64,000 nt of DNA from Mesoplasma syrphidae (lineage in GTDB: Bacteria; Bacillota_I; Bacilli_A; Mycoplasmatales; Mycoplasmataceae), in NCBI RefSeq assembly GCF_002843565.1, contig NZ_CP025257.1:372001-436000 (forward strand). The letters run 5' to 3'. Positions 17,342-24,740 of this stretch are shown in pieces. The notes under the pieces are model-generated. The model saw nothing but the letters and a program-made list of their open reading frames with translations, was not told the origin of the DNA and searched no databases. A program made the translations under genes and the position numbers. The first letter of the stretch is position 1; each line of letters opens with the position of its first letter.

Positions 17342-20300
17342 ATGAATAAAGCAATTAAAAATATCTTTGACAAATTGTCAATTAACTTTGATGACCTTGA
17401 CCTAAGCTATTTTGAAAATGCCGACTTAGTTGAACAAATTAAGATTTCTAAATTAAAAGGAAAAGCCTATGTTCATATAAGTATAAATAATTTTTTACCA
17501 ATTCGCATTATTGAGCAAATAAATTACGCTTTCAAAAAAAATGATTATGTCCCAATGAAACTAATTTTGGATGTCAAGCATCAGCAAATTGAAAAAGAAA
17601 TTGTTTGAGAATATTTGGAATGAATTAAAAACAGCAAGGCTCAAGAAAAGGGAGGTTGCTGAAATTTTGTTGACCGCGAAGGCTATACTTTTGACATTGA
17701 TAATCAAACAATTATCTTTAAACTTGAATCCTTATCACAAAAAGCTGAATTTGAAGTATTAACAAAATATTGTGATGCCAAATTAAAGCAATGTGGATTT
17801 AAAAACTTAAATTTTAGCATTGAAGTTGATCAAAGTAATGAAGAAGAGTATTGGAAAAAACATGAAAAGAACTATCAGCTAATTGTTGAAAAGAAGGCTC
17901 AGTTTGAGCAGTCAATTAGAACTAATATTGAAACAAACCGACAAGTTTATCAAACTAATAATAGAGTGTTTAAAAAAAACTTTGTCAAATTAGATGAACC
18001 TACTTATAAATCAATTGCTGATATTGATAATGATGCTCAAAATGTAGTTATTCATGGAATGGTAATGACCAAAGAAATTAGAGTCTCTCGAGCTGGAAGA
18101 AAAATTTATATTTTGGGAATTACTGATCACAAATCTTCAATCAAGGCAACTTACTTTGGAAAAGATGAAAGTGATTGTTTATTTGATAGTCTAACTGATG
18201 AAGAAGCAGCTGCTGATAATGCCAAAGAAATGAAAGCATTGCGAATTGAAAAAGGCGATTGAGTTGCTTTGAAGGGAAAAACAAGTTATTCTCAATATGA
18301 TCAAGAGCAAGTCTTTTATATTGATAATTTTTGCAAAATTGAAAAAAATGTTGAAGTTCGTAAAGATTTGGCAAAAAACAAGCGTGTAGAATTACACATT
18401 CACTCTAAAATGTCAGCTATGGATGGTATTTCTGATTTTAAAGATTACGCTAATCTAGCAAATCAATGAGGATGGAATGCTTTGGCACTAACTGATCATA
18501 ATAATGTTCAATCATTTCCAGATGCCTATGCAGCTATTAAATCTATTAATAAGAAGCGTGATTCTAATAATCAAATGAAAATGATTTATGGTCTAGAAAT
18601 GACAATGCTACCAAATGATCTTTGATACGTCAAAAATCCCAAGAATCAAAGTTTACGTGAGACAAAATTGGTAGTTTACGACTTGGAAACAACTGGACTA
18701 TCTCCAGAGTTTGATGAAATTATTGAGTTTGGAGCAGTTGTCTATAACTACAAAACTGGAGAACGTAAACAAATAGATATCTTAATTAAACCAGAACAAA
18801 AACTTAAACAGTTTACAAAAGATTTGACACATATAACTGATGAAATGCTTGAAGATAAACCGCCTATTGCTGAAGCTTTTAAGCAAATTTATGAAATTAT
18901 CGATGGTGCAATTTTAGTCGCTCATAATGCAAACTTCGATTTCAACTTTTTAAATAGCTATGCTCAAAAATTGGGATATCCCGAGCTAACAAATACGGTA
19001 ATTGATACCTTAACAATTGCACGAGCAATGTATCCAGGGTTAAAAAATCACCGTCTAGGAACTGTGGCCAAAAAAAATGGAATTCTTTATGATGAAAAAG
19101 TGGCTCACCGTGGAGACTATGATGCTGATGTTTTAACAGATATTTATGAACATATGTGAGCTAACATGCGTAAAATAATGGATATAAATCTTGATTCTGA
19201 TTGAGCAAAAATTCATCCGCAAAATGATAAAGAAAATATGAATTATATTAAAACGCGAGGTTTTCATACTACTGTTTTAGTTAAAAATCAGGCGGGATTA
19301 AAAAAATTGTACAAGCTTGTTTCTAAATCACATACTGATAATTTTTTTGGAGGGCCAAAAATTTTTAAAAACATACTTATTGAAGCTCGCAATGAGGGAA
19401 ATCTTTTATTAGGGACTTCTTGTGTTAATGGAGAAATTTTTGAAATGGCTCGAACTAATACATTGTCTGAACTTGAGAAGCGAATTCAAGATTATGATTA
19501 TGTAGAATTACAACCATTAAGTGTTTATAAAAATCTTTTACAAAATGATTCTTTAAATGAAGAAGAACTTAAGCGAACTATCAAAATAATTATTGCGGCA
19601 GCTTTAAAATATCACAAAATTATTGTTGCTACAAGTGATGCACATTATGTAAATCCTGAATTGAAACAAATTCGTGAAGTGTACATTAATGCTAAAGGTT
19701 TAGGTGGAACACGTCATCCCTTATTTGATTACAAGGGTCGTGTGAAGGACAACCCAGATCAACATTTACGTACTACTGATGAAATGCTAAAAGAGTTTGC
19801 TTGACTAGAAGATCAGGAATTAATTAATAAAATTGTTATTGAAAATAGTAATTTAATTTCTAGTATGGTAGAACCCAACATTGAAGCAGTAAAAGAAGGT
19901 CTGTATACACCATCAATTGAAAATGTTAACGAAAAATTGCGAGCAAAGTGCTATGAAACAGCGCATGAATTATATGGTTCAGATCTTCCTGAAATCGTTG
20001 AGGCTCGCTTAGAAAAAGAGTTGAATTCAATTACCAAATATGGTTTTTCAGTAGTTTATTGAATTTCACATTTGCTTGTTAAAAAATCATTAGATGATGG
20101 TTATTTAGTTGGTTCGCGAGGATCAGTTGGTTCATCATTTGTAGCGACAATGTCAAAAATTACTGAAGTAAATCCACTGAAAGCGCACTATCGCTGCGAA
20201 ACTTGTCAATATTCCGATTTTAATACTCCAGCAGAGGTTAAGTGTGGTTATGATTTACGACCAGCTCAATGTCCTAAATGTAAATCAAGTTTAGTTGGCG

Positions 20301-21823
20301 ATGGACATGATATTCCGTTTGAAACTTTTTTAGGATTTGAAGGAGACAAGGTTCCCGATATTGACTTAAACTTTTCAGGTGAATATCAACCAGTTGCTCA
20401 TAATTTTACTAAAGAAATGTTTGGAGAAAATAATGTATTTCGTGCTGGAACAATTTCAACAGTTGCCGAAAAGACGGCTTTTGGTTATGTTAAAGCATAT
20501 TATGAAGAAAAATTTGGATATGAAAATCAACCTCGTAAAGTTGAGATTGAGCGTCTAGCCAGTTTAGCTGAAGGTGTTAAACGTACGACAGGTCAACACC
20601 CTGGAGGAATTATTATTTTACCCTCTGAATATGAAATTGAAGACTTTACACCAATCAATTATCCAGCTGATGATACATCATCAAGTTGAAAAACAACACA
20701 CTTTGATTTCCATTCAATTCATGACAATTTATTAAAGATGGACATATTGGGGCATGTTGACCCGACCGCTTTAAGAATTCTAAGAGACATTACGGGAGTT
20801 GATCCAATGACAATTCCAACAAACGATAAGCAAGTTTATTCGTTATTTTCAGGATTGAGTTCTCTAAAAATTCAACCTGATCAAATTAATGGTGAAACAA
20901 CTGGAGCAATTGGGATTCCGGAGTTTGGAACTCAATTCGTTAGAGGAATGCTTAAAGAAACAAGTCCAAAAACTTTCGCAGATTTGGTTCAAATTTCAGG
21001 ATTATCACATGGAACCGATGTATGATTAGGAAACGCTCGAGACTTAATTAAAGAAAATAAGGCCAACATTTCAACGGTCATTGGATGTCGGGATGATATT
21101 ATGGTGTACTTAATGTCAATGGGATTGGATTCATCAATGGCATTTACGATTATGGAATCTGTTCGTAAAGGTAAGGGTCTTAAAAAACCGTGAATTGATG
21201 CAATGAAAGCCTGCAATGTTCCAGACTGATATATTGAATCATGTTTGAAAATTAAATATATGTTTCCCAAAGCACATGCGACTGCTTATGTTTTGATGGC
21301 ATATCGAATTGCTTGATACAAAATTCATTATCCAGCCGAATATTATGCCACTTTCTTATCTACCAGAGCAGATGCATTTGATTTGAAAGTTTCTCTTGGA
21401 GGTTATGAAGCTGTTAACAATCGTTTAAAAGAATTAGAGGCACGATCAGCAGGATCTTATGGTGATAAACTTACTAAAAAAGATGAAGATTTAATGGTAG
21501 TTTATGAAATAATGCTAGAAATGTTTTCTCGTGGAATTAAGTTTGGAAATATTGATTTTAAAGTTTCACAAGCTTCAAGATTTGTTGTTGTTGAGAATCC
21601 GCAAACTAAGGAAAAAACAATTATTCCGCCATTTAATATTATTGACTCACTAGGAATTACAGTGGCTGAATCAATTGTTAAAGCTCGAGAAATATCAGCG
21701 ATTGCATCAGTAGCTGATTTGAAAAATCGAACTCAAGTAACTCAGACACAATTAAAAATCTTTGATGAATTGCGAATTACTGATTCATTATCAAGTGATG
21801 AACAATTAACATTTGAATTTTAA
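17342..21823 (+). CDS. polC: DNA polymerase III, Gram-positive PolC alpha subunit
   Basis: 1493 residues, full length for PolC, the main replicative polymerase with its own proofreading. Order: N-terminal domains (1-~200), OB fold (~205-330), PHP domain starting at [13 protein letters not shown] (~351), inserted DEDDh exonuclease (DLETTG near 446, NFDFNF near 540, HRGDYDADV near 581), return to PHP (ATSDAHY), zinc module with CETC and CPKC (~950-985), and polymerase active site DIDLNFSG (~1006). Numerous TGA Trp codons occur. It ends with a terminator. Confidence 0.96.
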
Positions 21824-21847: not shown

Positions 21848-21911
21848 TTTATACAGTTGTAGTTTTCTAACAAAGGGAGTATTATTTAAAATAACAATTT
21901 AATATAAAAAA

Positions 21912-22030
21912 CTTGTATAAGCCAACATAATGGGTTGGTGTCTCTACGTCGTACCAATACGAATCTATAAGACTTAGCACTCGTGGAGAAGTTTTTTGCA
22001 TACTTTTTGCAACATTCTGACGAGTTTTTT
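21912..22030 (+). promoter_or_regulatory. Guanine-type purine riboswitch with terminator platform, upstream of guaA
   Basis: The aptamer spans 21912-21971. P1: 21912-21917 with 21966-21971. P2: CCAAC (21922-21926) with GTTGG (21934-21938), loop L2 ATAATGG. J2/3: GTCTCTAC (21940-21947). P3: TCGT/ACGA (21949-21952, 21959-21962) with loop L3 ACCAAT, which can kiss L2 through TGG-CCA. The specificity base equivalent to C74 is C21965, so guanine or a guanine analogue is expected rather than adenine. The expression platform is a hairpin (ACTCGTGGAGAA region at 21979 with TTCTGACGAGT to 22025) plus six T. It should turn guaA-guaB off when guanine is plentiful. J2/3 position 48 (C for U) and J3/1 position 73 (T for A) differ from the consensus. 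Confidence 0.85.
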
Positions 22031-22050
22031 ATTTAATAAAAAGGAGAAAT

Positions 22051-23595
22051 ATGCAACAAACACAAATCATTATTTTGGATTATGGAAGTCAATATACGCA
22101 ATTATTGGCTCGCAGAATTAGAGAACAAAATGTCTTAGCAGAGGTAGTTGACTTTAATTTGACTAAAGCTGATTTATTAAAATACCCCAACTTAAAAGGA
22201 ATCATTTTATCAGGGGGGCCAGCCAGTGTTTATGAAGAAAATGCATATATGGTTGACAAAGAAATTTTAGAGGCTGGATATCCAGTTTTGGGAGTTTGCT
22301 ATGGACTACAACTAATTACACATTTATTTGGAGGAACTGTTGAAGCTGCTACTAAACAAGAGTTTGGAAAGGCACAGTTAGTTATTGATGATCTATCAAA
22401 TATTTTATTTGACAATGTTCCTAATTCAAAAAATGTTTGAATGAGTCATGCTGATCATTTAACAACCATTCCTAATGATTTTTATCAAATTGCGCATTCT
22501 GATAATTCAATTGCAGCAATTAAGCATAAAAATCAAAATATTTATGGAATTCAGTTTCATGCAGAAGTAACTCATTCTGAATTTGGAGCAGAAATACTTA
22601 ATAATTTTATTTTTAAAATTGCTAAAGCCAAAAAGGACTGATATATGTCAACCTTTATTGAAAAAGCAATTGCTCAGATTAAGGAAAAAATTGGTAATGA
22701 CAAAGTAATTTTGGGTTTGAGTGGAGGAGTTGATTCATCAGTTGCCGCTACTTTAGTATCAAAAGCAATTGGAAAACAGCTAACATGTATTTTTGTAGAT
22801 ACAGGATTACTTCGCAAAAATGAAGCTCTACAAGTAATGGATACTTACGCTAAAAATTTTGATATGAATATAAAAATGGTTGATGCAAGCGAGTTATTTT
22901 ACAAAAATCTTCGTGGAATTAGCGAGCCTGAAACAAAGCGCAAGATGATTGGAAAATTATTCATTGATGTGTTTACCGAAGAGGCACGCAAGATGAGTCG
23001 AGATGCCAAATGATTAGCGCAGGGTACAATTTATCCTGATGTCATTGAATCTTCAAAAGAAGGGCATAGTTCAAAAACAATTAAGTCACATCATAATGTT
23101 GGGGGATTACCTGAAGATTTAGGATTCGAGTTATTGGAACCAATTCGTGATTTGTTTAAAGATGAAGTTCGTAAGGTTGGTCGTGAACTGGGAATTCCTG
23201 ATAAAATGATTGATCGTCACCCATTTCCCGGGCCAGGATTGGGAATTCGTGTAATTGGTGAAGTTACAAAAGAGAAATGTGATATTTTGCGTGAAGTCGA
23301 TGACATTTTTATATCAGCTCTTCACGAAGCAGACTTATATACTAAAGTCCAACAAGCTCATGTTGTTTTACTTCCTGTTAAAACAGTAGGAGTCATGGGC
23401 GATAATCGTACATACGAATTTGTGGCAGCTTTGAGAAGCGTTGATACGGTTGACTTTATGACAGCAACTGCTAGTCATCTACCATGAGACTTTATTGATA
23501 AAGTAGTTAATAAAATTATTAATGAAGTTAAACATGTTAATCGCATTGTTTATGATGTAACTTCAAAACCTCCAGGAACAATAGAATGGGAATAA
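22051..23595 (+). CDS. guaA: GMP synthase (glutamine-hydrolysing)
   Basis: 514 residues, full length. It makes GMP from XMP, ATP and glutamine. The glutaminase domain (1-~195) has the nucleophile Cys83 in GVCYGLQ and a His in QFHAEV; the ATP pyrophosphatase P-loop SGGVDSS is near 225; the C-terminal dimer domain ([11 protein letters not shown] region) follows. TGA codons at 22438 and 22639 are Trp inside one protein, so it is not two genes. The leader carries a guanine-type riboswitch. The last 10 bases overlap guaB. Confidence 0.96.
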
Positions 23596-24740
23596 ATATG
23601 GGAAAAAACAATAGCTTAAATAATAAATTAGTAGATCATGGAATTACTTTTGATGATGTTTTAGTAGTTCCCAGCTACAGCGATGTATTGCCAAATGAAG
23701 TTTGTTTGAAAACTCGTTTAACAAATAACATTAGTTTAAATATTCCATTTGTGTCAGCGGCTATGGATACTGTCACTGAACATCGATTGGCAATTGCCTT
23801 GGCCCAACTCGGTGGAGTTGGAGTGATTCACAAAAACCTGAGTATTGAAAACCAGGCTAAAGAAGTAAAAGTTGTCAAAAATTTTAAATTTGAAGTTGAA
23901 GAAGGCATGAATCCAGCTTATGACACTCAAAAACGCTTACTAGTCGGAGCTGCTGTTTCAACAGGTTTGGATACGCTAGAAAGAGTCCAAAAATTAATTG
24001 CCGTTGGAGTCGACTTTATTGTTGTTGATTCGGCCCATGGTCATTCTCAAGGAATTTTAAAGACTGTTAAATCTCTTCGTAAAAAATATCCTGAATTAGA
24101 AATTATTGCAGGAAATATTGCAACAACAGCTGGAGCCAAGGCTTTAGTTGAAGCTGGGGCAAATGCTGTTAAAGTTGGAATTGGACCAGGAAGTATTTGT
24201 ACAACAAGAGTTGTTGCTGGAGTTGGTGTACCTCAGATTAGCGCAATTGCCAATACTTATGAATATTGCCAAACGCATAATATTCCCTTTATTGCAGATG
24301 GAGGAATTAAGTATTCTGGTGATATTGTAAAAGCGCTAGGGGCTGGTGCGAATACTGTCATGCTTGGTTCAATGTTTGCAGGAACTGAAGAGTCACCTGG
24401 TGATGTTATTCATATTGATGGTAATTCATATAAGACATATGTGGGAATGGGCAGTTTGGCTGCAATGAGTCGTGGATCAAGTGATCGTTATTTTCAAAAA
24501 GGAGCTAAAAAGTTAGTTCCAGAAGGTATTGAATCAATGGTTAATTATAAAGGCCCATTAGCTGAAATTGTTTTTCAAATGCTCGGGGGATTGCGTTCAG
24601 GAATGGGATATACTGGAAGTCATACAATTGAAGAGTTAAGAACAAACACAAAGTTTGTTCAAATTACCAATGCAGGCTTAGTTGAATCTCATCCTCATGA
24701 TGTAAAAATGATTCAAGCAGCACCAAACTACAATAAATAG
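23586..24740 (+). CDS. guaB: IMP dehydrogenase lacking the CBS domain pair
   Basis: 384 residues, about 100 shorter than usual IMPDH. It oxidises IMP to XMP with NAD+, feeding guaA. The catalytic loop GPGSICTTR has Cys205, and the flap DRYFQ (~300), KLVPEG and the C-terminal GSHTIEELR are those of IMPDH, not GMP reductase. Where two CBS domains are normally inserted the chain is short (around residues 100-115, [13 protein letters not shown]), so allosteric control through CBS is absent. Start ATG 23586 lies within guaA; ATG 23598 is an alternative. Confidence 0.94.

Follow-up and report, generated by a model that had tools for sequence, protein, structure and literature searches.

A guanine riboswitch with a lineage-variant junction, predicted to act as a transcriptional OFF switch before guaA-guaB in a Mesoplasma-group mollicute

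The guaA and guaB genes of a 908-kb mollicute genome, in which TGA is read as tryptophan, are preceded by an ordinary member of the known guanine riboswitch family RF00167, and this element very probably acts as a guanine-I riboswitch that turns transcription off in response to guanine. Within the window, the whole stretch of 64,000 nucleotides that was analysed, cmscan reports one purine riboswitch: the Rfam Purine covariance model (RF00167) matches positions 21893-21987 with 41.4 bits, where the gathering score is 37, and with an E-value of 7.4e-6 at whole-genome scale. A sequence-only reading of this DNA had proposed a guanine-type riboswitch with a terminator platform before guaA-guaB and had suggested a search with this model; the score lies above the threshold and not below it, and the proposal is supported. 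The three-stem aptamer of that reading, with its L2-L3 contact bases and C74, is likewise borne out by the RF00167 match and the structural parse (Table 1). A second RF00167 match at 372948, of only 19.3 bits, was dismissed as chance.

The closest named relative by guaA is Mesoplasma seiffertii (91% GuaA identity, in a search from which the genome's own records may have been absent). The guaA leaders of three congeners carry the orthologous element, and between the four species P2 and P3 have changed on both sides with pairing kept (A-U to G-C, C-G to U-A and U-A to C-G). The three stems P1, P2 and P3 with paired changes that mark an RF00167 member are thus found, except for a mismatched first pair of P3. 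L2 reads AUAAUGG and retains the terminal GG of the L2-L3 contact, while L3 has CC. The RF00167 score, its whole-genome E-value, the guaA copies of the three congeners and the two-sided changes in P2 and P3 place the element beyond chance. Downstream, the start of guaB overlaps the stop of guaA by 10 bases. The GuaB protein has 384 residues, and its Pfam match covers the IMPDH catalytic domain only; no CBS (Bateman) domain was found in it by Pfam, so that nucleotide allosteric control may be missing. A promoter scan found no forward promoter, and a TATTAT at 21880-21885 was spotted by eye only.

Table 1. Features of the guaA-guaB leader and its surroundings, in window positions.
Feature	Position	Strand	Basis or remark
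polC	17342-21823		Pfam DNA polymerase III alpha; upstream of the riboswitch
Purine (guanine-type) riboswitch aptamer, three stems	21911..21972	+	RF00167, 41.4 bits; structural parse
P1 5' strand	21912..21917	+	pairs with 21966-21971
J1/2 UAA = U22 A23 A24	21918..21920	+	structural parse
P2-L2 hairpin	21921..21939	+	P2 = 21921-21926/21934-21939; two-sided changes in congeners
J2/3 GUCUCUAC	21940..21947	+	G46 U47 C48 (21942) U49 C50 U51 (21945) A52 C53
Antiterminator 5' strand UCUCUACG, in J2/3, includes C48	21941..21948	+	predicted
P3-L3 hairpin	21948..21963	+	P3 about 21948-21952/21959-21963; opens with G54 (21948). A72 (21963) mismatch
J3/1 UC	21964..21965	+	U73 (21964), C74 (21965) = specificity base
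P1 3' strand	21966..21971	+	
Intrinsic terminator ACUCGU...ACGAGU, inner stems	21979..22030 (stem 21979-22025)	+	T-run 22025-22030
Antiterminator 3' strand CGUGGAGA, overlaps terminator stem	21982..21989	+	predicted
Shine-Dalgarno AGGAG	22042..22046	+	by eye
guaA, glutamine-hydrolysing GMP synthase (table 4)	22051..23595	+	NF000848, 778 bits, cut-off 400
guaB, IMP dehydrogenase catalytic domain	23586..24740	+	PF00478, 530 bits

Judged from the bases of the binding pocket, guanine is our best guess for the ligand. The three bases that specify guanine, U22, U51 and C74, are all present. Adenine riboswitches use the same scaffold and require U74, where this element has C74. The 2'-dG-I aptamers require C at position 51/58, where this element has U51; in both 2'-dG classes a C at position 51 selects the nucleoside, and the U51C change alone converts a guanine aptamer to 2'-deoxyguanosine (PMC8872408). 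The element scores 40.1 bits with the 2'-dG-I model (RF01510) of the same clan, short of the cut-off of 51, and a 2'-dG-I assignment was rejected on this score.

Set against known systems, the element most resembles the guanine-I riboswitch (RF00167) of Bacillus subtilis xpt, with which it shares the three-way junction, the L2-L3 contact bases, the terminator platform, U22, U47, U49-C53, C74 and a guanine-biosynthesis operon. It differs from xpt in its short P2 and P3, which are usual in its own family, in U73 and G54.A72, and in the use of J2/3 as a predicted antiterminator strand. The 2'-dG-I riboswitch of Mesoplasma florum (RF01510) comes from the same bacterial family and has the same short P2/P3 scaffold, but it carries C in place of U51, and its J2/3 reads GACCCCGCC rather than GUCUCUAC. 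Guanine-II riboswitches of Paenibacillus (PMC9295807) also share U22, U51 and C74; in contrast to these, the element would have no insertion if aligned in the simplest way, and it is predicted to be an OFF switch where guanine-II is an ON switch.

The direction of switching follows from the predicted folding of growing transcripts, which gives two mutually exclusive states, the antiterminator and the aptamer with the terminator; ligand and loop-loop energies lie outside the model and would favour the latter. The J2/3 strand UCUCUACG can pair with CGUGGAGA once 21989 has been transcribed, and at 21992 the antiterminator reaches -18.0 kcal/mol against -12.3 for the aptamer. For the transcript to 22031, again leaving out the ligand and the loop contacts, the values are -28.9 for the antiterminator and -24.6 kcal/mol for the aptamer with its terminator. 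The helix between J2/3 and the platform is worth -10.9 kcal/mol, a value reached by none of 200 shuffles that kept base composition only; among congeners the corresponding helix is reached by 1% of shuffles in one species (L074) and by 12% in another (L070), where it is weaker. As it is also not seen in most other leaders of the family, the genus may be alone in using this switching strand. Without ligand, the strand at 21941-21948 would pair with 21982-21989 and block the terminator stem, allowing guaA-guaB to be transcribed. Binding of guanine would lock J2/3 into the aptamer and prevent the antiterminator from forming; 21979-22025 would then fold as the terminator and transcription would stop. 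Since 21982-21984 are also part of the terminator stem, ligand binding should terminate transcription and turn guaA-guaB off, and plentiful guanine would most likely shut down these two GMP-making genes.

Two core positions had been singled out by the sequence-only reading as altered. The bases themselves, C48 at 21942 and U73 at 21964, are correctly quoted, but C48 is no departure from guanine riboswitches. It occurs in 32 of the 58 distinct aptamers that were parsed with fixed junctions in the family and its closest relatives, and in 26 of 64 aptamers of other genomes from a class-wide search, a sample biased to high scores; the Rfam model alignment scores it '+'. On these counts, C48 is a common natural alternative to U48, and with such a frequency in all samples it was rejected as a sign of altered ligand choice. 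Its partner in the predicted antiterminator helix is G21988, and the J2/3 antiterminator was considered as a general cause of C48; this fits the genus, but C48 is common in leaders that lack the helix. A literature search for position 48 as a flipped-out base gave nothing.

Position 73 tells a different story in the family than in the wider class. A73 is usual in RF00167, although not treated here as defining, and in the class sample the 64 aptamers divide into 61 A, 2 U and 1 G. Of the 45 C74 aptamers in the family, 21 have A, 20 have U, 2 have G and 2 have C, and all 13 of the adenine-type aptamers with U74 have A73. Aptamers with U73 precede guaA, hpt, permease and lipoprotein genes (apart from guaA, names assigned by eye from translated starts). 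In one genus, one species has A73 (L056) and another U73 (L062), with identical P3 before the same permease gene, 127 of 157 residues being identical. This pair, together with the many gene contexts of U73, indicates that U73 comes and goes while the gene context stays the same. By this comparison U73 is a variant that recurs in the lineage, next to the binding pocket, and the two "altered core positions" make no new class. The first reading missed a further departure: G54 and A72, which would form the first P3 pair, are mismatched in each of the four species examined in the genus (L004, L075, L070 and L074).

What U73 might do is best considered through its neighbours. In the adenine aptamer A73 forms the triple A73.(A52-U22) with the U22-A52 pair (PMC6817744), so that U73 need not be neutral, and A24 is reported to lie between A73 and the C54-G72 pair, holding P2 and P3 together (PMC9588036). 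Within the family U73 is associated with G54 (14/19 against 6/26, Fisher p 0.001) and with A24 (14/18 against 6/20, p 0.004), tests that ignore the relatedness of the sequences, which inflates their significance. These associations fit a single stack next to the pocket whose bases co-vary. We would regard U73 with G54.A72 as the form that the stack joining P2 to P3 (73 / 24 / 54-72) takes in this lineage, and at most this form may tune stability or kinetics. The earlier suggestion that the two changes tune ligand choice or affinity is thus unsupported in its first part, because U22, U51 and C74 are kept, U73 alternates with A73 and the 2'-dG-I score is below its cut-off; position 73 may tune affinity or kinetics. 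A refinement of the guanine OFF switch, in which U73 and the state of 54-72 tune guanine affinity or on and off rates with the ligand unchanged, comes close to an even chance without quite reaching it: the bases associated with U73 are those reported to stack in the adenine aptamer (PMC9588036), but neutral drift with compensation would fit as well. That the conserved G54.A72 and U73 rebuild the junction stack of the genus's guaA aptamers into a subtype with changed selectivity or kinetics is unlikely.

The mismatch could also be read as a shift of register by one base, in which P3 starts at pair 55-71, J2/3 has 9 nucleotides rather than the 8 obtained when G54.A72 closes P3, and J3/1 has 3 (AUC), which would recall the junctions with insertions in guanine-II. 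While G54 and A72 cannot form a standard pair in these four species and guanine-II does have one inserted nucleotide in J2-3 (PMC9295807), close relatives with U73 (L046, L060 and L062) have a normal 54-72 pair with junctions of 8 and 2 nucleotides, which makes a mismatch simpler than an insertion; we consider the shift distinctly improbable. We give slightly less credence again to altered selectivity, in which U73 with G54.A72 would favour 2'-deoxyguanosine, guanosine, hypoxanthine or xanthine over guanine. U73 is rare outside the family (2/64), 2'-dG-I type aptamers occur in the same genome, and A73 contacts A52-U22 (PMC6817744); against this stand contact bases of the guanine type, the 2'-dG-I score under its cut-off, the alternation of A73 and U73 before one gene in close relatives (L056/L062) and a gene context canonical for guanine. 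A decayed, non-functional riboswitch, to which the modest score and the P3 mismatch might point, is scarcely credible for an element that has an intact platform and that four species retain with compensatory changes.

Other purine aptamers accompany the element in its genome and family. Two loci of the same genome carry the adenine-specific U74, L002 (G000:C1:76924-77018 +) and L001/L084 (G000:C1:566822-566916 -), and are followed by purA and by a purine-permease-like gene; the family as a whole yielded 13 distinct aptamers with U74. RNAs with C51 (CUCCAC) lie in the same genome at 228805, before a ribonucleotide-reductase-like gene, and at 804059, before a lipoprotein gene that resembles those for nucleoside-binding lipoproteins; the latter RNA, at G000:C1:804059-804120 - (L036, L083), is 2'-dG-I-like with 50.1 bits against the cut-off of 51. 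In a sister genus (g5) an aptamer on the RF01510 scaffold precedes guaA (L100, L101, L102, L103 and L105, at about 1380-1450) with J2/3 GACCUGCC, and the ribonucleotide-reductase leaders have J2/3 GACCCCGCC. At the selectivity position the guaA copies of this genus seem to have U, and their leaders perhaps sense guanine in a 2'-dG-I scaffold. Two further RNAs of the family that lie before lipoprotein genes, L033 and L073, parse with a J3/1 of 3 nucleotides (UCC and AGC) and are possible junction variants.

In the Mesoplasma-group mollicutes A73, near-universal in most purine riboswitches, varies freely, and its stacking neighbours 24 and 54-72 vary with it; U73 alone should therefore not be taken for a sign of a ligand switch. 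The natural A73/U73 pairs of these bacteria are on offer for probing what role position 73 may have in tuning.
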